Below, piece by piece: positions 29,901 through 59,804 of a stretch of DNA of 64,000 nucleotides. Source of the stretch: Apostichopus japonicus (Eukaryota; Echinodermata; Holothuroidea; Aspidochirotida; Stichopodidae); contig NC_092562.1 of assembly GCF_037975245.1 (NCBI RefSeq), forward strand, positions 29,093,554-29,157,553, read 5' to 3'. A program made the position numbers and the translations under genes. Position 1 is the first letter of the stretch, and each line of letters starts with the position of its first letter. The notes under the pieces are model-generated. The model searched no databases and had not been told where the DNA came from. It saw nothing but the letters and a program-made list of their open reading frames with translations.

Positions 29901-32900
29901 ATTTTCAGGAAGATTTTAATCCACAAGAAAAGTATCAGTTTTTCCCCAATTCTTACGTTTTCTTTGAATATGACTAAATGAGAAACAGCATATTTTATGA
30001 AGTTACAGGTCAGCGTATCTGAATATTACGTCAAGTGGCCTGTGAATGTAATATGACATCATGGATCGTTACCTGAACATTTTGCAAGAACTTTGACAGA
30101 TTCTCTGTTGTTGCGTGATATGATCATGATCAAACGAACTGAGCAAAGAGTGAACAATACCGAGCAATCTACATAATTTATGTGATCATGGAGGTTGGTA
30201 ATCATCTCTGGTATCATTTGTACTCCAGGTTCTAACTGTGTCTTTCTTCATTGATTTAGTTCTGGTTTCTTTCTTGCCTGTTTTCATTTTTAGGGAAGAG
30301 GTGAAAGAGCGTATGACATATACTCCAGATTACTGAAAGAAAGGATTGTATGTTTGATGGGGCCAGTAAGTAAACTTTATTTAATTGTACTCCATATTAA
30401 GGAAAGAAAGGATTGGCTGGGGCCAGTAAGTAAAATTCATGCTCCAAATTATTGAAATAAATGATTGGCTGGGGCCAGTAAGTAAAATTCATGCTCCAGA
30501 TTATTGAAATAAAGGATTGGCTGGGGCCAGTAAGTAAAATTCATGCTCCAGATTATTGAAATAAAGGATTGGCTGAGGCCAGTAAGTAAAATTCATGATC
30601 CAGATTATTGAAAGAAAGGGTCATGTGATGGGGACAGTAAGTAAAATTCTTAATCCAGTTTACTGAAAGAAAGGATTGTGTGTGTGATGGGGCCAGTAAG
30701 TGAACCTCATTTAATTATATAATCCAGATTATTGAAATAAAGGATTGCATGGGGCCAGTAAGTAAAATTCATACACTAGATTACTGAAAAAGGGGTTGTA
30801 CGTGTGATTGGGCCAGTGAGTAAAATCATTTAATTGTACTCCAGATTGCTGAAAGAAAGCATTGGATGTGTGATGTAAGTAAAATGCATTTAATTTTCTC
30901 AGCATTTGGTACTGATGTTCAGGTAAAGTACACCATATCCAGACTTGTCAATTGTGACCAAACAAGCCATTTTGACTTGGTTTGAAATAGATGACATTTT
31001 CCACATTCAATAAGAAGTTTCCATTGTCATATTTTGCACTGTCATTTATGATGTTCAATGGTACTTTTACTGTGCCGTAGCCAGTAGATAACATTGTCCA
31101 GATCATAGGAATATTAAAAACAGCTGGTTGGCTTTTGATACAAAAATACAGTTTGAGATGTCCACTATTTTTTACAATTCATTTAAAATCTTGAAAATAT
31201 CTGTCACATTTTAAAGCAAAAAGGATAACCTAGATAAATTTGTTTTGGTACAGTTTACCATCCAAAAAGGATGACACCTGTGGATTAGTGGTGCAAAACT
31301 TGCAAACTAAATATCAGATTTGATGTTAGTGCTATCAAGACTAATGGAACCTCCACCCATGGTCTTGGTTTTTGGGCACTGCCGTAGTGCCAAACCCTTT
31401 ACTTTGGCTGGATTCCTGTCCCTTTGTGGTTAATGTCCTTCACAATGCGGTGGAATTGTTTTTGGTACAAGTCTGCTAAAACACTTAGGTTTCAGCAAGT
31501 CTGCCCAATTAATAAGATCTTGAAACAAATGATTATGTTAGATTGAGTAAGGAACGATCATGTGAATACAGTGGACCCTTCATGACCCTAACAGATTTAA
31601 ACAGCCCAGGGGCTTTCAATTGTTGGAGGCAGAGACTCTGCTCCCACCACTGCTTTCTCCGATCGCCAACCCCCCCCCCCCCCTCTGCCCTGACATCATT
31701 TCTCTCATTTATGGATCCATGTTCTTTTTTTCCCTTTCTTTTTCATAGGTAACTGATGCTATGGCTAGTCTTGTGATTGCCCAGTTACTGTTTCTGCAAT
31801 CTGAAAGCAGTAAAAAGCCAGTTCACATGTACATCAACAGTCCAGGTCAGTCTCTTCAACACTAAACCTCTCTAATGATTGGCTCCATTTATTTATATCT
31901 ATATAGAGGTCACATGTACATCAACAGTCCAGGTCAGTCTCTTCAACACTGTACCTCTCTAATGATTGGCACTTTCATTGGCTCCATTTAATTATATCTA
32001 CTGTATACAGAGGTCACATGTACATCAACAGTCCAAGTCAGTCTCTTCAACACTATACCTCTCTAATGACTGGCTCCATTTAATTATATCTAGATACATA
32101 GGTCACATGTACATCAACAGTCCAGGTCAGTCTCTTCAACACTAAACCTCTCTAATGATTGGCTCCATTTAATTATATCATATCTATACAGAGGTCACAT
32201 GTACTTCAACAGTCCAGGTCAGTCTCTTCAACACTAAACCTCTCTAATGATTGGCTCCATTTAATTATATCATATCTATACAGAGGTCACATGTACATCA
32301 ACAGTCCAGGTCAGTCTCTTCAACACTAAACCTCTCTAATGATTGGCTCCATTTAATTATATCATATCTATACAGAGGTCACATATACATCAACAGTCCA
32401 GGTTAGTCTCTTCAACACTAAACCTCTCTAATAATTGGCTCCATTTAATTATATCTATGCAGAGGTCACAATTACATCAACAGTCCAGGTCAGTCTCTTC
32501 AACACTATACTTCTCTAATGATTGGCTCCATTTAATTATATCTATACAGAGGTCACATGTACATCAACAGTCCAAGTCAGTCTCTTCAACACTATACATC
32601 TCTAATGATTGGCTCCATTTAATTATATCTAGATACATAGGTCACATGTACATCAACAGTCCAGGTCAGTCTCTTCAACACTATACTTCTCTAATGATTG
32701 GCTCCATTTAATTATAACTATACAGAGGTGATAAAAGCAATGTTTACATCAAAAGCAGATCTTAAAATAAACTCAGTTCTCTATGTACATTAGCAAAGAT
32801 TTCCCCTGACCCCTTATCATATCATTGTTAGCCATTAACCAGCCAACTTTTGTTCTTGCTTTCTTTTGCCTGAATTTCCTATGACATCATCAGACTTGAA

Positions 32901-35900
32901 GTTTAATCATAACAGTCACTGCCCCTTTATGTCATTTTATCTAGGTGTTGTAATTTTTTAGTGAGAGGTGGTGTACAGTAACTCTGATAAACGTAATCAG
33001 CATATTTTCAAGGGCAACTTTGCCACATTTATTGGTGGAGCATAAGAAGAAAGCCAATCTAACCCTCATTGGTCAGGTTTGTGATGTAATGGGAAGTTAT
33101 AAAATACCACAAAATAGCTAAAAACACTTTGTATTCACAGCTTGCAAGATCTCATATCTTATTAAGTCTTCTGCGATCTGTTAAACTCCATGACTAAATT
33201 ATTTGATGTTATAATTGACATTAAATTCAGAGAAGATTTACTATACCCTGGAGTATATTTATTTGTGTACATAACAGTTTATGACGTCCATACAGACCTA
33301 TAGTATCACCCACTCAGGAAACAGATACCTTAAATAAATGTTTCCCTTCTACACTAATTACGCCCACTCACTGCTGGACAATCTTATTTATCAAGGAAAT
33401 GTTATAGTGCCCAGCTAACAAAACCATGTTTGTTGAAGATCAAAATATACATGCACACAAACACACACAAGGAAGTTTACACGGTTTGATGTGGACCAAG
33501 TTGACCTAACCCAATTGTCGTAAATATGGTAGTCAAGGAGATGTAGCTGGATTTTTAATGCAGCATGTGGGATAAATATTTGAAGGTTGTTTGTCATGAA
33601 AATTCCTTTTCCAACATGAGTCATGAGCGTCATCAAGCATCATTCCAAATAGAACGGGAGAGTAAAAAACGGTTGAAACATTTTATGTTTGCTTTCAGAC
33701 TCGTTCTAATTTTGTACTCTATGAAAAGTGTCCGGCAGACAAACTGTTGACCATGGAGTCACTTAATTTGTTTAGCTCCATGACCTAATTTGTTTCCTTA
33801 AAATGCCTAGGCGAGTGCCTTTATCATGATTGGAAACAATTGGGTACAGTTACTGTTCAAGCTGTCTAGGACCGGGCAAGTCTTTACCTTGGCTGGTGAG
33901 AAACCTGCCTCCTACAGTAGGCTAGCAGTATGTCTGTCAGATTAGCACACTCTGTGGGATAATTGTACCGGCATGTGTGGCAGTAGCTCATTGATGAGAG
34001 CTGACCTTGGTAACTCATGCTAGCATCCTCTCTTTACTGTACCTTCCTTAGAAGAACAGTATCCTTGTTTTAGCTGGTAGTCTATGATTGGCATTACCAC
34101 ATAAATCTATATGCAGATTACAGAGATGTTTGCCTATTGTAGTGTGTGATAGGTCGATGAATGGTTATCACACTTTTGAGTACAACTACTTGAATTTGCT
34201 GACTGGTGGCAAAATATCACTGATGTTGTAGTTGCCAATTCATAATTTCTGACTTGCACAACTCCATAACATACTTTAATATAACAAAGCAGAGTTTGCC
34301 AGGACCTGGTACTTCCTTGTGCATAGTATGGTTTCCCTGCAGTTCTTAAAGTAAGGTGTGCAACAGTAAGTGGTAGTCATAAAGATGAAAGTAAATTATA
34401 CATAAATATTTTTCAAACATTCATTTGTTAAAAATGACTAACTTTTGTTTTTTGCAAATGCCACAGTGACTTTGATAGATCAAAGATTTTATAAAAGTGA
34501 ATAGATGTTTAGGAAAGAAAATTCATTTTTGGATGTCAACAAGTGCAGAATGCCAGTTACCAAGGAATGTAACGTGTTAAAAATCAAACTATCAATCCAG
34601 TTTGCATATTAATAAATATTAAATCTCTAATTTTATCTCCGTTCAAGAGATTGATAACTTTATTCTCAGCAGTCGGGGATCATAAACAGCTGTACAGTTT
34701 ATACCCCCGTCCATGTTTATCCCTGCTCAGGTAGTTATAACTCCCACCAAATTTAAATAGCAACCATGTTAAAACTTGCGAGGAGTTTTCAAAAATTGTT
34801 TCCCTGAAGGTATTTAAGAGGTGCGTAAAATTACTGTCTCAAGAAGGTAAACTTCATATAGAGGATGGAATTCTTTTAACTAATGACTTTTTATCTCTTT
34901 CATTTTCCTCGCTGATGGTTAATGAATTCAGGTGGGCTTGTCACAGCTGGGTTAGGCATATATGATACTATGCAGTACATCCTACCACCAATTGCTACTT
35001 GGTGTGTTGGCCAAGCATCTAGTATGGGTTCACTGCTCCTGGCAGCTGGTACTCCCGATATGAGACACAGTTTACCAAATTCTAGGATAATGATCCATCA
35101 ACCCTCAGGTCAAGCAGTGGTAAGTAGTAGCTTTAACTCTAGACGGAACTAAGGGTATATATATATGCAGTCTTCATGAAGAGAACATTTCAACAGAATG
35201 TTCCTACTTTAACTGCAGCAGTGACAAGCATCTTTAAGTCGTGATGAAATTTAGAAATAATTGTAAGCAATACTACAGTGGGAAATGTTTCCCCGAAAGG
35301 TAATGAGGGCGGTATTGAAGAACTTAACATGCATAGACTCCGGATGTGTGACCTGATTAGTTCACTTTGGCTTCGGCTTTGAGTACAATGTTTCTATATG
35401 CTGCTGGTGTTAATAGTAATTACGACTTAAGAGATCCGCATCACAGTCACTGCCAACATTGCAATCCACTGTCCCCCTCATAATTCTCACAAGGTTGGTA
35501 AGAGTGATGTCATAGTGCTCCCTTTGGAGGAAACCAAAAAGGCAAGCTTCACAGAATCCTCCCTTGGAATTACGCCTGAGTATCCTAAGAGGAGAAAACA
35601 TGGTCCTCACAACCAATAAGCTGCTCTTGCAAATAAACATTTCTGCAAGCAATGGAAAGCTTGTTCGGGTTCTTAAACTTTGCAAATGGGTTGTTATGGC
35701 AATAAGATAACTGGCCATGCTGACATAGGCAGGACTACTTATAGACCAGTTGCATGTTATAGTATTTGTCAGTGAATCATCAATGTGATGTACTAGCTCT
35801 TCGATACCTACTGTAGAGAAACTGCAGTTGTATAAATGTTGAGATATTCCTAGAGATTGTGAGTAGAGCAGATGAACTTGACTGAGCTTTGGCGATCTGT

Positions 35901-38900
35901 AGAATGCATATTTGGAAGATTTGGTATTGTCATTACTGTATACGAAGAACCATAGGGTAGTTAATATAGATCTGTGTTTTCTGGGTTTACCTGTAATAAG
36001 GAAATTCACCTACATCAAACTAGGATTTGCATATCACTTAAATATGTAAAACATCACCATTCCGAAAAATTTGTTGAGACTTTATTTCCTGATTACATGT
36101 AAGCCAGTTACAAGGTTAGCCTTTTGTTATTACCAGGTTAGCCTTTTACCAGGCTAGCCTATAATAGTAAGCCTATTACCAGTAGTGGATCCAGAATTTT
36201 AAAGAAGAGGGGTTGTGGTCCTGGGCTTGTAGAAGGCATCTTCCCATGTGCAGGGGATTCTGGGAATTATCTCGCATAGAAAACGTAGACAGATGAAGAT
36301 TGACAGTCAAGGTACTGACAACATAGAGTACAGGGAAACCTGTAAAACTATCAGGAAGAAGATACGTGAGGATGTCAGAAACTACAACACCAAAATGATA
36401 CATGACACAATAGAAAACAACAGGAGTATTAAGAAAACCAACAAGAAGCTTGGCCAGGGAACAAAGAAAATCAATAAACTTTTGGACTCAAATGGGCAGG
36501 AAACAACAGACCAGGATGATATTCTGCGGAGAATAGAGAAATTTTATGAAGAACTATACCAAAGCAATCAGCAAACCAGAGACATAGATGATTCTCAGGA
36601 GAAAGTACCCAAAGTTGAATGCTGGGAAGTAGAATATGCTTTAAGCCAAATGAAATGGGGCAAGGCCCCTGGACAGGACAACATAATGATGGACACACTA
36701 AAAGAAGCAGGGGATGCAGTTAATAAGGAACTGGCAAAGCTCTTCACAGCTTGTCTTCACCAAGGGAAGGTTCCTCAAAAGTGGAAAGATGCCAACATGA
36801 TAATATTGCACAAAAAAGGAGACAAAAGGGACTTGAAGAACTACCGGCCCATTAGCCTTCTATCCAATATATACAAGCTTTTTACAAAGATTCTGACAAA
36901 CAGACTGGAAAGACTTCTAGACGACAACCAACCAAGGGAGCAGGCGGGATTCAGAAGAAATTTCTCAACAATAGATCACATTCATACCCTCAACCAACTG
37001 AAGGAAAAATGTCAGGAGTTCAATATACCTGTATGTGTCGCTTTCGTGGACTATGAGAAAGCTTTCGATTCCGTTGAAACCTGGGCAGTGCTCGAGGCAC
37101 TGAAAGAGCAAGACATCAACCCTAACTACATCAAAGTAATCAAAGACATCTATACTGGCAGCACAACTACTGTTAAGTTACACAAAGAAAGCAACAAAAT
37201 ACCAGTAAGGAAAGGAGTGAGGCAGGGAGATACCATATCTCCAAAGCTCTTTACTGCATGCTTAGAACACATCTTCAAAGACATTAATTGGGAAGATAAA
37301 GGTATCAATGTGAATGGGGAGAAGTTCAACCACCTCCGTTTTGCTGATGATATAGTCATCATAGCTAACAACTTCAACGAAATGGAGAGCATGCTACAGG
37401 ACTTGGACATAGCAAGCAGGAAAAGAGGACTGAAAATGAACATGAAGACCAAAGTATTGGCAGACCAATCAGTTAAACACAAACCAATCATCATTAATGG
37501 AACAGAATTGGAACATGTATCTGAATACATTTACCTGGGACAAAGGTTCACTCTCACCGAAAGGAATCAAGATAATGAAATAAGGAGGAGGATCAAAGCA
37601 GGGTGGCAAGCATTTGGCAGATACAGCCACATCATGAAGGGCAATCTACCGTTATGCTTAAAAAGGAAAGTGTATGACCAATGCATTCTCCCATCAATGA
37701 CATATGCATCAGAAACATGGACACTAACAATTAAAATGGAAAGAAAGTTAGCAGCCGCACAACATAACATGGAGAGGAGTATGCTTAACATAACATACAA
37801 AGATCACAAAACCAATAAGTGGATAAGGGAACAAACAAAGGTACAGGATGTAATGGAAGTAATCAAACATCGTAAATGGACATGGGCCGGCCATGTCACT
37901 AGAAGGGGAGATGGAAGATGGAGCACGATAACCACTGTATGGACACCGCTTGACGGGAAAAGGAACAGAGGCAGGCAAAGAAAGAGATGGAGAGATGAAA
38001 TACAGAAATTCTGGAATGAAACCAATTGGTACACACATGCAAGGGAGAGAGAGAGTTGGAGATATCATGCTGAGGCCTTCATCCAGCAGTGGATCGACAA
38101 TGGCTGAAGAAGAAGAAGGAAATAAAAAATTCTGTTAATAACTTCTTCTGGATGTTTGGTGGAAGAAGGGGTGGTGAGGTGGATGGATAGGGGGTATGGA
38201 GGGATAGGAGGTGTGGTGGTGGGAGTGCGGGGTTGAGGGAGAGGGACAGAATTCTGCATCTGGTTTAGAGTTACTACCCTTTATGGTGTTTCAATAAGTA
38301 TCAGGTCAAGGCTGAATGTATTTCTTCATATGCCTTTAACAATGAGTTAGCCTTTATAATTTTACATATTTATGATTCCAACTATGAGTCTTCAGTACAG
38401 AGATAACATAAATAATGAGCTGAACTGTTCTTCTTTAATGTCAGGGTCAAGCAACGGATATTCAAATACAGGCAGAGGAGATCATCAAGTTAAAGAAACA
38501 ACTGAATAACCTTTATGTCAAGCACACAGGGCAACCACTTGATGTCATAGGTAAGCCAGAGTTGGGTAAATTATTGAGTAAGCACTAGAGGGAATTATCA
38601 TTTTCTACAGGCGCGTAGCCAAGGGGGGGCTAAGGGGCAGCCGCCACCCCCCCTTGAGTATATATAAAAAAAATTTTTTTAATGTTTTATGATATCGCTA
38701 GTACTTTGAAAAGAGAAAATGCTAACATGCAACTTACCTGGGAAGTGCCATTTCCAGCAATCTGGGAGGCATTTTCAGCCAAAATTTTCTTGTATGCTTT
38801 GCGTCAACCGTGGTGGCGCTACGCTTAGATAGTTTGCAAAGCCGTATTTACGGCTCTGATAGTTTGCCTACATTTTCGCCCCTCCTTTGGCATATTCCTG

Positions 38901-39589
38901 GCTACGCCCCTGATTTTCTATATCTCATAATTATGACACAACATGTTACATGAAATATTTATTTATGGTAAGAACTATGAGTCATTAAACAAGATGGGGG
39001 GGAGGGGGGTGGGGATGGGGCATAGAGGGGAATGTAGCCAATATGTCAGTGGAGTGTATTCTCTTAAAGGAATTGCCAAATTACAACACCATCGGTATTT
39101 GTGAGAATAAATTTTCCTAATTGTAAGGAATTTTCCTCAAGAAGCACATCAGTGAAGAAATGTATACTTAATATGCAAGTGCTGCAGCTATGGTAACCAC
39201 TTATATATATGCCAAGTGAAAGAATTAATGTGAGCTTCGAGAAGACTATGGCAGTAATATACTGTTAAATGTAGCAGAAAGGTTACCAGACAATAATGAG
39301 CTGAATCACCATGGAAACGATTTTCTTGACTAGAGTTGCATGATTTTAATGTTTGACATTAATCAAATTTGAATTTGATTTCTATAGTTCCTCTGCTATT
39401 TACTGAAGAGTAGATGATTGTTTCGTTAATTATCCTCCTCCTTTAATTGACCTGTTGTTGTTTACAGAAGCTGCGATGGAGAGAGACAGTTTCATGACTC
39501 CAGAAGAAGCGAAGGAATTTGGTTTGATAGACAAAGTACTGGAACATCCTCCACTGGTTAATGAACAGAACAATACAGACAGTAATTAG
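26883..39589 (+). CDS. CLPP: CLPP, mitochondrial ATP-dependent Clp protease proteolytic subunit
   Basis: Seven exons: 26883-26903, 28666-28743, 30294-30365, 31749-31845, 34932-35119, 38445-38550, 39468-39589; 684 bp, 227 aa. ClpP subunits form a double heptameric ring in the mitochondrial matrix that degrades proteins unfolded by CLPX. Hallmarks: IPIVIEQT and [18 protein letters not shown] at the N-terminal side, YINSPG, catalytic Ser in [11 protein letters not shown], catalytic His in IMIHQPSG, catalytic Asp in AMERDSF. The C-terminal extension is much shorter than in human CLPP. All junction phases agree. The first exon (MNILKST) is the only uncertain part; with exon 2 it gives a basic, hydrophobic leader suitable for mitochondrial import. 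Introns 3 and 4 contain exon-derived arrays, intron 5 a LINE. Confidence 0.93.
27557..27645. repeat. Imperfect hairpin in CLPP intron 1
   Basis: 27557-27584 and 27618-27645 are inverted repeats (AATGTGCTCTTTCC, CCATA, AAAAGTGC) with two mismatches and one bulged base; loop about 33 bases. ATGGCGGAA/ATGGAGGAA words recur around it. Confidence 0.75.
27695..27726. repeat. (GTAT)n microsatellite
   Basis: Several GTAT repeats in CLPP intron 1. Confidence 0.85.
28666..28743 (+). CDS. CLPP: CLPP exon 2
   Basis: Encodes the end of the transit peptide ([16 protein letters not shown]) and IPIVIEQT, the conserved start of mature ClpP. Donor GTAAGT. The acceptor reads TTCAGCAG, so the exon may start at 28666 or 28669. 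Confidence 0.88.
30294..30365 (+). CDS. CLPP: CLPP exon 3
   Basis: 24 codons, phase 0-0, [18 protein letters not shown] then VCLMGP. Donor CCA|GTAAGT. Its last 40-odd bases and donor are the founder of the array that follows. Confidence 0.95.
30323..30900 (+). repeat. Tandem array derived from CLPP exon 3 end plus donor
   Basis: About ten units of 52-68 bp. Each has a copy of the exon 3 end (CTCCAGATTACTGAAAGAAA, GGATTG), most with GGGGCCAGTAAGTAAA including the donor, then intron sequence (ATTCATG or TTTAATTGTA). The first unit is the real exon edge, so exon 3 is part of the array. Confidence 0.92.
31749..31845 (+). CDS. CLPP: CLPP exon 4
   Basis: [20 protein letters not shown] ... HMYINSP, phase 0 to 1, donor GTCAGT. 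The 3' end is repeated about nine more times downstream. Confidence 0.95.
31825..32730 (+). repeat. Tandem array derived from CLPP exon 4 end plus donor
   Basis: About ten units of roughly 88-96 bp. Each contains CACATGTACATCAACAGTCC, the codons of HMYINSP, the donor AG|GTCAGTC, and intron sequence CAACACTAAACCTCTCTAAT. Most units also have CTATACAGAGG just before, so each resembles a 26-bp mini-exon with acceptor and donor. Confidence 0.95.
32740..34931. other. CLPP intron 4, remaining part
   Basis: About 2.2 kb with no recognisable transposon, RNA or exon. Confidence 0.45.
34932..35119 (+). CDS. CLPP: CLPP exon 5 (catalytic Ser and His)
   Basis: Starts [16 protein letters not shown], contains [10 protein letters not shown] with the nucleophilic Ser and RIMIHQPSG with the catalytic His. 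Ends SGQAV, donor GTAAGT, phase 0. Confidence 0.97.
35410..36009 (-). other. Unidentified 199-codon ORF in CLPP intron 5
   Basis: Open for 199 codons on the minus strand, long for AT-rich intronic DNA. Composition is mixed ([39 protein letters not shown]) and no domain is recognised. It could be a captured gene fragment, transposon debris or chance. No splice or start context supports expression. Confidence 0.2.
36180..38135 (+). mobile_element. 5'-truncated non-LTR retrotransposon (RTE-like) with intact RT ORF
   Basis: Sense insertion in CLPP intron 5. The ORF 36248-38107 (619 codons) has no frameshift. Its RT blocks are [43 protein letters not shown] and the catalytic [11 protein letters not shown]. 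The C-terminal part has [13 protein letters not shown] and [11 protein letters not shown], common in endonuclease-RT proteins of RTE-like LINEs. The N-terminal endonuclease is missing, so it cannot be a complete element. The 3' end has GAAGAAGAAGAAGG and A-rich sequence. Uninterrupted coding implies a fairly recent insertion. The clade is uncertain. Confidence 0.88.
38445..38550 (+). CDS. CLPP: CLPP exon 6
   Basis: [20 protein letters not shown] then [12 protein letters not shown], the ClpP handle region. Acceptor GTCAG, donor GTAAGC, phase 0 to 1. Confidence 0.97.
38608..38912. mobile_element. hAT-type MITE D in CLPP intron 6
   Basis: Ends CAGGCGCGTAGCCAAGGGG and TGGCTACGCCCCTG. Perfect 8-bp target duplication ATTTTCTA at 38600-38607 and 38913-38920. 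Family core at about 38,792-38,832. Confidence 0.88.
39468..39589 (+). CDS. CLPP: CLPP exon 7 (catalytic Asp, stop)
   Basis: [20 protein letters not shown] then IDKVLEHPP; the Asp of MERDS aligns with the bacterial catalytic Asp. TAG stop at 39587-39589. Confidence 0.97.
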
Positions 39590-39705
39590 TAGGAATGTAA
39601 CGATTATCACACTTTACAAACTTTATGGCTTTTCTGGAGGACAGATGAACGACTTTTGAAGTACGCTCTGGCGGAGATTTCTCTCACCGAATCGACTATA
39701 AATGA

Positions 39706-39711
39706 AATAAA
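39706..39711 (+). terminator. CLPP polyadenylation signal
   Basis: AATAAA about 120 bp after the stop codon, the first canonical hexamer in the 3' flank. Confidence 0.5.
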
Positions 39712-41009
39712 ACGCAGGAAACCCGACAACACATTGTCAGTTTCTTTAATCGGGATCCTTAAAGCAGCAAGCAGGGTTTCATATAGCTTCAAGAACTAAC
39801 CAGGAGATGGACACATATCATGGACAGTATCAATTAGAAATCATAGTCTAAGATTAAATTCAACTTTTTATCTGTGTAAGGCGTAACTATATTCGTTTAC
39901 TCAGCCAAGAGCTGTCACAAATATCAAATGTTCTCACAAGTATGGTCTATGGGATGAACTTAGCCACGCCAGTGTTGCACATTATGCTTAAAGGCATTGA
40001 AGACTCGTCCCAAACTGTGTGCGGCCATCAGAAAAAGTTAACTTTCTGTTGCTTGCAAGTGACCTTTTGTTTGTGTCGCTACAAAATGCAGACAGTAATG
40101 AAACGTGATACCTTGTTATCTTTAGCTGGACCTGAGATGTCCACGCTGCTATGCACACTGTGTTGTGGGTATTAACCGCAGCTGTATGTACTGACTGTAT
40201 GTACACTTGTGTCTAATTACCGACAGTAGCAAGCTGTGTGTGTATTTTCTGGGATCGATGGTGGTGTCTAACACTTTTGTTACACCTCATTCAAAACTAG
40301 GTCAGATTACCGGCATCAGACGTTTCTTTTTGCCAAGTCTTCACACTTATAAGATGACTGACATTTTGGTCAAAAAAGATGGAGGAGTTATAGTCAGCAA
40401 CTTCACTGATTTCGAGACTCCTACCCATTCTAGAGTGAAATCCCTTGACCCGATATTCAGGTGAATTTAACCAAAGAGATGACAATGGTCCTATCTTTCT
40501 GCTAGAACAATATCATGGTCCTTCCTATTTACACATCCTTGGTCAATGTCACAGGGGCAATACCTGGTTCCTTTCTGGTACTAACAAAATTCCCATCATT
40601 GTCCATTCTTTAAATTAAAGACATTACCGTTGCCCTCCCTCTCTAGAGACAACCCTGTTTTCTTTCATTCTCACTTATTGCCTTCTGTAGTACTGAAGTA
40701 TGTACATTGGTTGTCCTTTATATGATTTTGAAAAGGTCCTCCCACCTCCCCCCCCCCTCCTCCTGTGCCAATTATGGCTTCCATCAACACAAACCTCTGA
40801 TATACAGGGTAATGACCTCTTACTTTCAAATATTTAAATGATCTCATTCAGGTTTATGATATCTTAAGGTAAACTATTTATTTTGCTGATTAGTTTCTCG
40901 ATTAATGTAAACCAACTTTGTTTATTCAAACACTAAGTATCCAAATTTGCTGTAATTAATGACTTGGTGAGATAATATGTTGTAATTTGCAAAGTATTTG
41001 TAAAGTACT
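39712..41009. other. Downstream flank of CLPP
   Basis: No gene or transposon recognised. ORFs here are short and without domains. Confidence 0.4.
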
Positions 41010-42610
41010 TGTTGGTATAATCAACCCCTAACCTTCACCACTGCGAGGCCATGTTGCAGTACTTGTTGGTATAATCCACACCAAACCTACACCACTGTGA
41101 GGCCATGTTGCAGTAATTGTTGGTATAATCCACACCAAACCTACACCACTGTGAGACCATGTTGCAGTAATGGTTGGTATAATCCACACCTAACCTACAC
41201 CACTGTGAGGCCATGTTACAGTAATTGTTGGTATAATCCACACCTAACCTTCACCACTGTGAGGCCATGTTGCAGTAATTGTTGGTATAATCCACACCAA
41301 ACCTACACCACTGTGAGGCCATGTTGCAGTAATTGTTGGTATAATCCACACCAAACCTACACCACTGTGAGACCATGTTGCAGTAATGGTTGGTATAATC
41401 CACACCTAACCTACACCACTGTGAGGCCATGTTACAGTAATTGTTGGTATAATCCACACCTAACCTTCACCACTGTGAGGCCATGTTGCAGTAATTGTTA
41501 GTATAATCCACACCAAACCTACACCACTGTGAGACCATGTTGCAGTAATGGTTGGTATAATCCACACCTAACCTACACCACTGTGAGGCCATGTTACAGT
41601 AATTGTTGGTATAATCCACACCTAACCTTCACCACTGTGAGGCCATGTTGCAGTAATTGTTAGTATAATCCACACCTAACCTACACCACTGTGAGGCCAT
41701 GTTGCAGTAAATGTTGGTATAATCCACACCTAACCTTCACCACTGTGAGGCCATGTTGCAGTAATGGTTGGTATAATCCACACCTAACCTACACCACTGT
41801 GAGGCCATGTTACAGTAATTGTTGGTATAATCCACACCTAACCTTCACCACTGTGAGGCCATGTTGCAGTAATTGTTAGTATAATCCACACCTAACCTAC
41901 ACCACTGTGAGGCCATGTTGCAGTAAATGTTGGTATAATCCACACCTAACCTTCACCACTGTGAGGCCATGTTGCAGTAATGGTTGGTATAATCCACACC
42001 TAACCTACACCACTGTGAGGCCAAGTTGCAGTTATTGTTGGTATAATCCACACCTACCCTACACCACTGTGAAGCCATGTTACAGTAATTGTTGGTATAA
42101 TCCACACCAAACCTACACCACTGTGAGGCCATGTTGCAGTAATTGTTGGTATAATTCACACCTCACCTACACCACTGTGAAGCCATGTTGCAGTAATTGT
42201 TGGTATAATCCACACCTAACCTACACCACTGTGAAGCCATGTTACAGTAATTGTTGGTATAATCCACACCTAACCTACACCACTGTGAAGCCATGTTACA
42301 GTAATTGTTGGTATAATCCACACCTAACCTACACCACTGTGAGGCCATGTTACAGCAATTGTTGGTATAATTCACACCTAACCTACACCACTGTGAAGCC
42401 ATGTTACAGTAATTGTTGGTGTAATCCACACCTAACCTACACCACTGAGGCCATGTTGCAGTAGTTGTTGGTATATTCCACACCTAACCTACACCACTGT
42501 GAGGCCATGTTGCAGTACTTGTTGGTATAATCCACACCTAACCTACACCACTGTTCAGCCACGTTGCAGTACATGTTGGTATAATCTGCACGGTACCTAC
42601 ACCACTGTGA
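41010..42610. repeat. 54-bp minisatellite with 216-bp higher order
   Basis: About thirty copies of a 54-bp unit (TTGTTGGTATAATCCACACC, CTACACCACTGTGAGGCCAT). 54 is divisible by three, so long repetitive ORFs appear on both strands (CWYNPHLTYTTVRPC type); I regard them as artefacts. Identical variant patterns repeat every four units (216 bp), for example 41035-41250 versus 41251-41466. Confidence 0.97.
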
Positions 42611-42619
42611 GGACTTGCA

Positions 42620-43595
42620 TGCAAGTATTATATTTCAGGAACATATCCTGATAGTTTTAATTACAAAGTTTATTTTTATGTTCAATTCTGTGCAGTATAA
42701 AATGGTGTAGGGAGGAAATGTTGACGTTATTAATATGACTCAATTAGACACGGAATCCCCCTTGGAACATTTTCCTATTAATGGTAATGTGTACCAGCCT
42801 TTCCTTATACTCTGTTGTATTGTTTATAACTCTGCTAAAATGTTAAAAGGCAGATCAAACATCTACTTCCTTCCTTCCTTATTTGTAAGAGAGAAGAAAA
42901 GTTATTTGCTCAGCGACTCAAGTCCGCTGTGAGACATTTAATGAAGTTCTCACGTTACATCTTTATGAAAACAATTTCCAAGTTCTTGAAACTCAATACT
43001 GTTCTTTCTGCAGCTGGTCACATTTCAATCAGTAACACGTAGTCTGCAAACTTTTGTTGCTATTCCCATCCAATTTATATATTTATGGCTGCAGAATTTA
43101 GAGTTCCTAAGTTCTGTATAAAGTATTCCTTCTTGTTATCTATCAAGTCCTTGTTAGGTATCAAATCATGTTAGGTATTAAGTCATTTCTTAGTTACAGT
43201 ATCAAGTATTTCTTGTTCTGTACAAATGGTAAAACCATCTGGTAAGCAAATCACTTCTTTCATAAACAACTTCAATCCATATTGTTATCTGCATATTTGT
43301 CCCAGAAAAGTTACATGGGGCTCTGGAGGGGGGGGGGGGCAGAGTTGGGAGGTGATGTTAGGTCCAAGTTTGTATCAAACAGATCTAGTTTGAAGTACAA
43401 AGAGAGCATCCCTTTTACCTTTTTCATCATGAAGCAAGGTTCTGCACACAAGGGTTGGAAAGCCTCTCTGAATTTCCAGCAAACATGTTTGCTAGCACTG
43501 GTGATTTCTTGTAATAGCACTCTTGTAACACAAGAGTAGTTAATAATGAAAAGTACAATAAAGGTCTGTTAAATTGAACGTTGTTTTCTTTCTTC
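42620..43595. other. Intergenic sequence, nothing recognised
   Basis: No gene or mobile element end seen; one G-run at about 43,327. Confidence 0.4.
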
Positions 43596-44143
43596 CTCCT
43601 TCGCATAGGCGTACGGGACCATTTCAGTTTGGGGGGCAGAACTTTTTGTGCCCGAAAGTTCCCGTGACACTAAGCGGAGCGCCACCATCGGTTGGCGCGT
43701 AGCGTACAAGAAAATTTTTGGCACACAATGCCTCTCAGATTGCCGGAAACGGCACTTCTGAGGCCTTGCAAGTTGCATCTAAACATTCTTTATTTTATAA
43801 TCTCACGTTTTAGAAATTTACACTTCCCGAAAAATTTGGTAAATTAGAAGAAGAAAAAATGGTTACATCACTTTGAAGGGAAAAATGGGACAGTATTTTT
43901 TAAGCTCCTATTTAGTTACCTTATTTATTATTTTAACACAGTACTCAGCTACCTCCAGAAAAACATGCATTGTTCAACGACACGTAGGCAGGATAATGTC
44001 GCTGTGTCGGGTGAGACTGCAATTTGTCTCACAAAAAAAGTATAAAATATATATATGATAAACCTGTACTTCCCCCCCCCCCCCCAACCATCCATGAAAA
44101 AGAAAATGTTTCTTATATACACTCATGTTGGGGATGTCCAGAT

Positions 44144-44785
44144 CAAGGGCGGCGGAAGCACTTTTAATCTGGGGGGGGGGGGGACCGACATCAAAGGGCA
44201 CTTTGCAGAAATTCGATTGGAATGATACAGCCTTATAATTAATACCCTGTATAACTCTTATTTTATTATCTTATTTCCATCAACGCCCCCCCCCCCCCCC
44301 AAAGGAAAATATGCATACTAGCACTGCAATATCCAATGCGCAAATTGGGAAACAAGGAACAAGTTTCCTTTTGAGACAAAATGAGGTGAAATCATGCTAG
44401 TTGCTAATGTAGGAATCTTCCGAATTACAGTTTTTTTCTTGTTAATATCTTAACAAATTTTTTTCCATTCGAAATAGCTTTGAGTTTGACCCACAGAAAT
44501 TCATTAAAAGTCACGGGCTTGGCCAGGATTTGCAAAGTTGTATGCACGACTATCTGAGCGGAGCGCCACCATCGGTTGGCGCGGAGCGTACTAGAAAACT
44601 TTGGTTTTACAAACCCCTCAGATGGCCGGAAACGGCCCTTCCCGAGCGTTCATTCTGGTTCCCTGGCCTCTTGCTAACTTGAGGCACCTCAATTTTTATG
44701 TCGAAAAAAGGCACATTTTTAACCTGAGGAAAAGTGGGGGGCACGTGCCCCCTGTGGCCCCCCCCCCTCGGTTCCGCCGCCCTTG
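44144..44785. mobile_element. hAT-type element G nested in F
   Basis: Ends CAAGGGCGGCGGAA and TTCCGCCGCCCTTG are perfect inverted repeats. Flanks GTCCAGAT and GTCCAGGT match 7 of 8. Family core at about 44,550-44,590. Confidence 0.85.
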
Positions 44786-44978
44786 GTCCAGGTATACAAT
44801 TGACTAGTTAGAAAAAAATTGATTGTGCAAAAAGCGTGGTAGCCCAGATGAACTGCGCTTACGGTGGTGTTACACGGAAATATTCGGGCATCATGATGCT
44901 AAATAAAGAAAATCATGGAATTGTCGGGCAAAAATTTGAAGAAGATTCGGGCAAGCTACTGCATATTTATATATATAT

Positions 44979-45101
44979 ATTTCCAGAGGACAAGAAATTC
45001 GGGCAAAAGTCCTGAAAAATTCGGGCAGCCTAATTCGGGCAGCCTCTTAGGCTGCCCGAATTTTTCAGGACTTTTGCCCGAATTTCTTGTCCTCTGGAAA
45101 T
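44979..45101. repeat. Perfect 55-bp-arm palindrome inside element F
   Basis: 44979-45033 and 45047-45101 are exact inverted repeats with a 13-base loop. The arms contain AATTCGGGCA words twice. Confidence 0.9.
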
Positions 45102-45157
45102 TTGGGGGGGCAGTCTGCCCCCCCTGCCCCCCCGCCTCGTACGCCTATGCTCCTTCG

Positions 45158-46665
45158 ATTAAACACCAGCTCTCAGCTTTCATACACATTTTCTATTTAT
45201 ATTATTTTATTATCTCAATACATTACATGTATAGAGATATTGTAACAGTAAGTGGGACTTTCTCTTCTCTTAAAAATTTTTCAGCGTCTTCAAACAAAGT
45301 TCTTTTTCTCTGGAATTTCCAGAGCAAGAATATATCATATAGACCAACAAAAGTTACTATTTTTTATTCCAGAATTGTATCTCATTCTGTGACTTTTTCA
45401 CCGATTTATGTCCAAATCGGGCCAATTTGGACTGAAAACACACTTTGACAGACCTGTTTTGCACACGCTCCAAAACTTATGTTTTATGAAAGAGAATAGA
45501 ATAGCACTGTCTTTCAACAGTGGTATCGTCTAAGATAGGGTCCTATGTATTATATATTTTATTAAAATTTTAAACTTTCATTTGTTGTTTACAGGTGGGT
45601 ATTAATAAGAATTTTACTACCTGTATATGACATTTAATGGCTTTTATTTGCTTGATTTGATGTTTAAATGATTTTTCTTTCTTAAAACAACACTGAGCTG
45701 CCGCCCCTACTTTTAGTAAAAAGGTCCGTTTTTGATGATTAAGCCCCGCCCCCAAGTCTGTTTTGTAGCAGATTGGCTATGACTCATAACAGCTACATGT
45801 TAGATATACGAAAATGGCTACCCTCGCGAACAATTTTCTGTTCTGTAGTTAGGTACGCGGAAAAACGTGGGTTGTTTTGATATCTAGAAGTGGACACAGT
45901 TTTGATGGTAGTCACCACTACAGTCTACAGTAACATACAGTAGGTCAATAGGCCTAGCTCTCAAGGCAGGCATCAAGAATATGGTCGAGTTGTTCGCCTC
46001 TTCTAATTTGGCTGTTGTCATTGACGTCAAACTATATGACCAAAAAGTCCAACTGAGACTGACCTTACCTAAGATGAAGGATACCACATAAAAAACAAGT
46101 TCTTAAATATTCTATGACATTACTAAACCTTGCAACGTCGTTCTTTCAACTAACAGGCAATGAGCGCTAAAGGCAAGACTAGCAGGATAAAGTGTAACCT
46201 GCAGAGACTATTCGTGGCAAAAATGCAAGTTATATATTTGTTGTACCATGATTGATATTGATAATTGTAGAGACAGAGCAAAGATTTGAAATTAGGAATA
46301 AAAATTAAAACTTCCAGTATTGAGATACTGCATCATTGATGCTCTTGTTATTTTAGTTTTAAATTCCAGCAAGGGCTGTATGTTTCTGATTAATTTTGTA
46401 CCCACGCTTTTCCAAACCAGCTGTACCATAAATATTTTCTCTGGCAACATACTCCAGCAATGTAGCTCTAGATGTATATATATATAGCAAGGTAATTTTT
46501 TCACATTATTTCAAATGCATATCAAAACTGCAGAATTGAACTTTAGAGGAGCAAATAATATTGTGGAGCTTCTAAACATGTGCCATTTGGTAAAGAAAAA
46601 TCTTGTCTACAGGGACTTGAGGTTGCATAGAACAAATTTGCATATTAACATTTAATTTTTCCCCC
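45158..46665. other. Intergenic sequence, nothing recognised
   Basis: AT-rich; no supported gene or repeat family. Confidence 0.4.
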
Positions 46666-46670
46666 CTATA

Positions 46671-47060
46671 GTTACCATGGGATATGTAATATACCACCAT
46701 GGGAGCTATGTGATACTATGGGATATGATACACCACTATTTGATACCATGGGATATGATATACCCCTATGTGATACCATGGGATATGATATACCATGGGA
46801 TATGATATACCCCTATGTGATACAATGGGATATGTGATATACCACTATGTGATACCATGGGATATGATATACCCCTATGTGATACCATGGGATATGTGAT
46901 ATACCACTATGTGATACCATGGGATATGATATACCCCTATGGGATACCATGGGATATGATATACCCCTATGTGATACCATGGGATATGATATAAACCACT
47001 AAGTGATATCATGGGAGATGTGATATACTGCTATGTGATATCAGGGGAGATGTGATACCA
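46671..47060. repeat. CCATGGGATATG minisatellite
   Basis: Twelve or so copies of a unit near 30 bp with CCATGGGATATGATATACCC and CTATGTGATA. The CCATGG core is palindromic. Confidence 0.92.
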
Positions 47061-47333
47061 TGGATGTCATGAGATTTAACAAAAATTGATCATCAATAGA
47101 TACTAACATCTGAAAAAGACAAAAATTTGAAACTTGAAAGCAACATAAAAGGACTGAAAAGAAAAATGATATCAATATATTGTTTACAATATCTACTCAT
47201 TTCATTTGCTACAACACTAGATCACATAAAATGCCCATGTGTATCAATTTCTAGGACAGGTTTTAGGGATTGCTCTTCTCATATAAATTCTATAGATTAT
47301 AACCTCAATGCTACTCTGTGAATTATTATTGTT

Positions 47334-47375
47334 TGTTAGCATTTGAAGATCCTGCTAGGATCGAAACGTCAGGCC
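47334..47375 (+). ncRNA. Hammerhead-like motif 1, degenerate
   Basis: GAAGATCCTGCTAGGATCGA, then AAACGTCAGGCC. Helix II (GATCC/GGATC), GAAAC and GUC are kept, but the CUGAUGA box is changed to CATTTGA. Located just downstream of the LRRC40 stop. Confidence 0.45.
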
Positions 47376-47839
47376 AACTTACTTTTACACAATTATTATT
47401 GTTGACAAACACTATGACTAAACTTGGGGCGGTATTTCACTCCCACCACTAATTCAAATAAATTAAGGAGCAAGCTAAATAACCCTCATTACTACTGCAG
47501 GGCATTGTGTAGTAGTTAATACACCATCCTGGGTGGACTAAAACAATCCTATTGTTAAGCTGTTGAAAAACTCAGAACTTTCACCATGGTTCCTGCTGCT
47601 TGGTGAACTGACCATAGCTATATAGTAAGACTGTAAATTTAGAGCTGCTGTAATCAGGGATTCAAAAAAAATTTATGACTCATTCCCAGGCCAGATTGAA
47701 TAAACACTGTCAACTAATTGGAGGGTTCGAAATTTGAATTAGCTCACCAGCAGGTCTAAAGCTTAACTGTTAAGTCAATACTCTAGAATAAATATCCAGC
47801 TGTGACATATACTTATATTGCTATCTCTACTTTAAACAA

Positions 47840-48010
47840 CTCCAGGAAACTTCACAACAGACAAGCAGTGAGTAACTGTCCTACATTACCACCTCTTCCT
47901 TAAACAACCCAAGGACACTTCACCAACATACAACAGACAAGCAGTGAGTAACTGTCCTACATTACCACCTCTGGCTTAAACAACCCAAGGACACTTCACC
48001 AGCACACAAC
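47840..48010. repeat. Two-copy tandem duplication near LRRC40 3' end
   Basis: ACAACAGACAAGCAGTGAGT and AACTGTCCTACATTACCACC occur twice in tandem, with a partial third copy. Confidence 0.8.
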
Positions 48011-48484
48011 ATTGAGTGACCAGAGAGTATCTTAATTTATGGAAGTACCTTACAAAGAAAACTTCCATTAGAAGGAATACAAACAACTTTAATACTGTCA
48101 AATGATAGTGCTGCAATATGTAATCCGAAAGCATTTACATTTATATTCCGAGGTTGGTGGAGAGAAACAGGTCTGTTAATTGCTCGAAATTCAAATTGTT
48201 CACCTTATCTGTCAGATTCCCCTCGCACCACACAGGCATTAGGTATATAAACTTTGCTTCAAATCTGATATATAATATCAGCTTTGTATCATCATATCCA
48301 TTACTTATTGATTACTTGATTATTATCGTTTCATAATTACAATATATAAAACATATTCCATCACAGTTGTGCACAATAATACACAATTACAAAAACACCA
48401 CAGACTCTCCCCCCTCAAACTGATGTAGAACCATTAGTACTTTACTAAATCTTCAACCATGACGATGTTTCGCTCAATCCGTAT

Positions 48485-59804
<11,320 letters not shown>

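Follow-up and report, generated by a model that had tools for sequence, protein, structure and literature searches.

How do tandem arrays come to lie over the edges of exons, and does some process favour splice junctions as the place where they grow? A stretch of the genome of the sea cucumber Apostichopus japonicus (C2:29093554-29157553, 64,000 nucleotides, hereafter the window) raises this question, as a preliminary description had reported five minisatellites in two of its genes, CLPP and LRRC40, whose units hold coding sequence, a splice site and a piece of intron. It had suggested that such repetition reflects a process that favours splice junctions, or at least a tolerance of expansions there. 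We examined the two genes, an independent set of introns from other genes and the genome as a whole (671,581,487 bases searched, in 35 contigs).

Five arrays at the exon edges of two intact genes

Both genes can be read through. LRRC40 lies on the minus strand in 13 exons, from position 59804 down to 48485, and translates into a single uninterrupted protein without an early stop, while exons 3 to 7 of CLPP, on the plus strand, translate as a single open ClpP frame through to the stop. CLPP exons 3-5 match human CLPP (E 4.8e-67) as well as the Pfam CLP_protease family. It is with the outermost copy of each array taken as the splice site that LRRC40 and CLPP (exons 3-7) give these intact readings.

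Each of the 34 junctions of the 17 introns in CLPP and LRRC40 was aligned against its own intron. Copies spanning the junction were found at exactly five of the 34, and these are the five that had been named. The alignment was used because TRF was too insensitive at two of the edges: it fails to enter CLPP exon 3, and of LRRC40 exon 8 (coding strand) it covers no more than 6 bp, since the terminal units have diverged there, and the alignment reveals the homology. At the looser threshold, nine copies were counted at the CLPP exon 3 donor, nine at the exon 4 donor, nine at the LRRC40 exon 3 donor, two at the exon 6 acceptor and ten at the exon 8 donor, with a spacing of 52-62, 87-104, 34-36, 110-111 and 28-51 bp, respectively. 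The stricter threshold gave 9, 9, 5, 2 and 7 copies in the same order.

CLPP exon 3 (30294..30365, plus strand) encodes 24 residues, is placed by its translation and the human CLPP match, and has its genuine donor from 30366. Array 1 (30326..30900, plus strand) repeats at least 40 bp of this exon edge, which is the limit of the probe, together with the donor GTAAGT in nine downstream copies, whose donors lie at 30426, 30478, 30530, 30582, 30637, 30696, 30758, 30816 and 30875. The GT is kept in all nine, and eight of them match or exceed the true donor in score. At CLPP exon 4 (31749..31845, plus strand), the genuine donor begins at 31846 and the ClpP translation runs on into exon 5 at 34932. 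The corresponding array 2 (31823..32716, plus strand) repeats 23-26 bp of the exon edge and the donor in nine downstream copies with donors from 31933 to 32665; GT is again kept in 9/9, and 6/9 score at or above the genuine donor. A DNA search of the genome, in which very common words were skipped, found no second place for this array, which therefore looks locally grown and not dispersed. By reading, many of its units between 31846 and 32716 also hold a possible acceptor (e.g., TATACAG) just 5' of the copied exon piece, so that the unit looks like a ~26-bp mini-exon.

The three LRRC40 arrays are on the minus strand. Array 3 (57920..58270), at the donor of exon 3 (58259..58332), has a 34-bp unit with about 11-12 bp of exon edge and the donor, in nine copies, seven of them with GT. 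Array 4 (55148..55487) is the single acceptor-side case; its 110-bp unit, present in two upstream copies, holds 37 bp of the start of exon 6 (55042..55184) and the AG acceptor. Array 5 (53218..53718), at the donor of exon 8 (53697..53787), shows TRF periods of 26-88 and repeats about 9-22 bp of exon edge plus the donor in ten copies, eight of which have GT. All five arrays have the genuine edge as their terminal unit. An array in LRRC40 intron 1 (59357..59612, minus strand), which served as an internal comparison, does not reach an exon. The anatomy given in the preliminary description, with four donor-side arrays, one acceptor-side array, the true edge at the end of each and an intron 1 minisatellite devoid of recognised exon sequence, is thus borne out.

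Duplicated junctions in motor-protein genes

As the window had been selected on account of its arrays, its count of 5/34 junctions is unusable for judging enrichment, and our inference comes from genes elsewhere. Exon matches of the kinesin, myosin head and dynein AAA_6 families outside the window were collected as an independent sample, and neighbouring matches were paired into introns bounded by GT and AG sites of compatible phase. The sample comprises 85 introns in 40 stretches (167,815 bp). It is not random: its kinesin part consists of the 30 loci with the best-scoring matches, and exon density guided the choice of dynein and myosin stretches. For seven of the 85 introns, placement is uncertain (penalty above 2), and dropping them leaves the counts of strong arrays as they are. 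Splice sites were scored with frequency tables. The AMP-binding exons (16 matches) were left out of the counts, as were the kinase matches (134, with 30 loci fetched), since by reading few of their neighbouring exons matched together.

At an alignment threshold of 36, 12 of the 170 sample junctions (7.1%), in 11 of the 85 introns, were copied into the adjacent intron; one of the twelve belongs to a C16 intron whose site placement is uncertain (penalty 7). Lowering the threshold to 30 gave 13/170, the extra one being a weak match of 21 bp at C20:12845800. After three rounds of shuffling each intron in two-base blocks, copies were found at none of 510 junctions. Within the same sample, intronic pseudo-junctions were duplicated in 175 of 1741 cases (10.1%) and exon-interior positions in 3 of 854, and the bootstrap interval for the junction rate minus the intron rate was -0.086 to +0.019. 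With only three gene families sampled, the 7% is an estimate for such genes and not for the genome. Edges without a paired neighbour were kept outside the main counts; 2/64 of them were duplicated, and this set is poorer because the splice site is only predicted.

Donors and acceptors were affected alike, with six of each among the twelve sample junctions; once the window is added, the families number ten for donors and seven for acceptors. On C19, one dynein gene (L067) has seven upstream acceptors with scores of 10.0 to 11.4, next to a true site at 11.3, and another on C1 (L066) has eight extra acceptors scoring 5.2 to 7.8, with the true site at 7.7. In two further dynein genes, on C21 (L074) and C4 (L076), single copies of the exon edge lie 364 and 475 bp off inside the intron; there are no arrays at these edges, which are absent from the strong TRF arrays, as if larger duplications also occurred.

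Splice signals in the copies

Taking the 17 families together (five from the window and twelve from the sample), GT or AG is intact in 61 of 65 copies, and 30 of the 65 equal or exceed the true site in score. The preliminary description had expected the arrays to create series of decoy splice sites, and by their sequence the copies would qualify as such. In donor copies, GT has changed at 4 of 77 bases, compared with 24 of 377 at the remaining positions up to 6 bp away; as the GT changes about as often as its neighbours, nothing suggests that donor decoys are removed. In acceptor copies, which are not independent of one another, AG has changed at 0 of 52 bases, compared with 21 of 260 for neighbouring positions in the same 6-bp range. 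The AG and the base before it are invariant in 26/26 aligned acceptor copies from the seven families. The invariant acceptor AG may be due to chance, given few families, or it may mean that decoy acceptors are kept. As for coding potential, a single one of the 61 signal-intact copies, the +60 decoy of CLPP exon 3, would extend its exon in frame and free of stops, by 20 codons.

Position of duplications and arrays relative to junctions

In the 85-intron sample, the duplication profile across junctions is flat and has no peak at the edge. Duplication affects 7.1% of the junctions themselves. On the intron side, the rate stays at 6.5-6.6% between 5 and 110 bp and is 8-13% beyond that; on the exon side, it drops to 5.3% (12-25 bp), 2.6% (25-40 bp), 1.0% (40-60 bp) and finally 0/821 (60-90 bp). 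A junction rate that does not exceed the intronic one, together with a flat profile that falls to zero 60-90 bp into the exon, argues for tolerance and not for targeting. Therefore, of the two options left by the preliminary description, tolerance at splice junctions stands, and a process that favours them does not follow from 12/170 junctions against 175/1741 intronic positions and a profile without a peak.

The placement of arrays was analyzed separately. Nine of the 15 strong TRF arrays in or at sample introns cross an edge, against 4.2 expected under uniform placement (P 0.0014). Adding weaker arrays gave 9/24 against 4.4 expected (P 0.004), and removing the two arrays that fill their introns gave 7/13 against 2.2 (P 0.0013). 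In CLPP and LRRC40, the same TRF test gave 3/7 edge arrays against 2.2 expected (P 0.37), and five of the seven strong arrays are edge arrays once the alignment is used. The nine edge arrays of the sample overlap the exon by 11 to 51 bp, without a fixed breakpoint. An array that includes a conserved exon edge would diverge from that edge more slowly than two free copies diverge from each other, and longer detectability beside a conserved exon may be the source of the excess of edge arrays. When edge arrays were weighted for detectability, P became 0.026 at a factor of two and 0.10 at a factor of three.

Age of the affected introns

Five of the nine affected dynein introns have a position and phase in common with array-free paralogues (positions 22.7, 141, 156 twice and 206). 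Since these paralogues share the introns, the array came to an old intron and did not make it; in these five, the intron was not absent before the duplication, as intron gain would demand. At position 156, phase 0, two paralogues have seven (L067, C19) and eight (L066, C1) near-identical acceptors at the shared intron site. The two arrays have units of 39 and 82 bp that are unlike in sequence, so that they probably arose separately.

Relation to described exon-boundary repeats

The arrays are of a known kind, the mirages, which had been known mainly from amphioxus. According to two papers (PMC3087553, PMC3902484), mirages are minisatellite-like duplications of exon-intron boundaries, found in several amphioxus genes (Adh3, the globins BflGb6 and BflGb9, troponin C and PGBD5) and unstable in length, and regular splicing is reported there to be undisturbed by them (PMC3087553). 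The likeness is close: the unit lies across the boundary, at a donor or an acceptor, beside the authentic edge, its signal is often kept, and unit lengths of about 10 to 160 bp are as here. In the sea cucumber, boundary-spanning units occur at 5/34 window and 12/170 sample junctions and at both 5' and 3' boundaries; many copies, though not all, keep AG or GT (61/65); and the authentic edge is terminal in genes that are intact, judging from the frames of LRRC40 and of CLPP exons 3-7 and from the phase-compatible exon pairs of the sample. The differences are the host, the genes concerned and the fact that the arrays were counted here against controls (~7% of sampled junctions). RNA and length instability are also reported for amphioxus, whereas the present arrays are known from the DNA of one assembly alone.

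Human genes offer related cases. One interferon-induced gene reportedly (going by the title of a paper) has minisatellite repeats that supply several donor sites, and to that extent resembles the arrays described here, being a minisatellite with repeated donors. The 31-bp VNTR of CBS, c.1444_1467+7(16_21), has a named unit of 24 exonic and 7 intronic nucleotides (PMC2630376); like the present units it lies across a donor, but it is one polymorphic human locus. In human segmental duplications, minisatellite-like repeats at exon-intron boundaries are described as altering gene structure; in contrast to the arrays here, that work concerns recent primate paralogues and has transcript evidence for new introns (PMC2812944). 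Among the open-licence papers found on mirages or minisatellites in amphioxus or sea cucumbers and on repeats at exon-intron boundaries, none, judged by title and abstract opening, reported such repeats from an echinoderm. Our data extend amphioxus mirages to an echinoderm with a controlled frequency (~7% of sampled junctions, in 11/85 introns). With up to eight extra donors (CLPP exon 3) or up to five extra acceptors (in a dynein gene) that score at or above the real site within a kilobase of it, such edges are natural experiments on how the splicing machinery picks one among near-identical sites. They are also places where gene predictors and short-read mappers can err, and they offer raw material for longer introns and novel splice variants.

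Origin of the arrays

We consider it likely that the arrays are mirages in the sense of ordinary tandem duplications that are tolerated at exon edges, grow by slippage or unequal exchange and are spliced at the outermost copy. This reading draws on what was observed: the anatomy and frequency of the arrays, a junction profile that is flat, decoys whose signals are intact, and introns of which some are older than their arrays. An ordinary local tandem duplication would come first, its initial unit straddling an exon edge by chance, and copy number would then grow and shrink through slippage or unequal exchange. The spliceosome would stay with the copy nearest the exon body, presumably through exon definition; use of this outermost site is suggested by protein conservation and not by transcripts. 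The extra copies would become intron. With the protein unchanged and the added copies intronic, a duplication at a junction would be about as harmless, and presumably as neutral, as one within an intron, a duplication inside the exon would be lost, and the conserved exon edge would keep that end of the array recognizable for longer. Our main reading is that tolerance accounts for most of the pattern; a mild preference for junctions may act beside it.

A full targeting model, in which breaks or slippage at exon edges (e.g., promoted by transcription or R-loops) seed the arrays, seems rather unlikely to us. It would explain the nine edge arrays where 4.2 were expected (7/13 against 2.2 without the intron-filling arrays) and the five of seven strong arrays that the alignment places at edges in CLPP and LRRC40, and a twofold detectability bias, which leaves P at 0.026, does not wholly absorb this excess and so counts against tolerance. 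However, the duplication profile has no junction peak, duplication is no more frequent at junctions than within introns, donors and acceptors are hit alike with scattered breakpoints, detectability weighting takes away much of the excess, and the TRF test is null (P 0.37) in the window, which was itself picked for its arrays. We hold similarly small expectations for a bolder version, according to which an active duplication process with a preference for exon edges has left about one intron in eight flanked by a ladder of splice sites, up to nine of them at least as strong as the true one, with the outermost picked by exon context alone and some inner copies used in certain tissues. Less probable again is that selection keeps the arrays, the decoys giving alternative proteins or buffering the loss of splice sites. 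The intact GT or AG of 61/65 copies, the 30/65 that score at or above the true site, the acceptor AG (0/52 mismatches against 21/260 nearby) and the open +60 decoy of CLPP exon 3 with its 20 codons fit such selection, but that decoy stands alone among 61 intact-signal copies, donor GT changes like its neighbours (4/77 against 24/377) and copies inside one family are not independent.

Two further explanations appear very improbable. Tandem repeats are liable to collapse or inflation in assemblies, and an assembly artefact or chance similarity might therefore mimic the arrays; yet the units differ among themselves by substitutions and indels, and 12/170 junctions outside the window were duplicated against 0/510 after shuffling. 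The reads were moreover HiFi, if the assembly is that of PMC10344927. In the Rogers model, a coding segment that holds a proto-splice site is duplicated in tandem and thereby gives rise to an intron. Duplications carrying AG/GT are the same raw material, and the amphioxus globin paper puts this model forward as a consequence of mirages (PMC3087553). Here, however, the units hold intron sequence past the splice site, so that the intron was already present, and 5/9 affected dynein introns match array-free paralogues in position and phase.

Other features of the window

Between its exons 5 and 6, CLPP has an intron with a long open frame (36233-38107) that resembles, by reading only, the reverse transcriptase of a LINE. 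The window also holds three occurrences of a 26-base motif (GATCCTGCTAGGATNGAAANGTCAGG), at 47348-47373, 50965-50990 and 54330-54355, where 0 occurrences are expected. In the copy at 50965, which CTGATGA precedes, the motif is reminiscent of the core of a hammerhead ribozyme, but Rfam gave no match, either for the window at gathering scores or for 50900-51060 at E up to 1.
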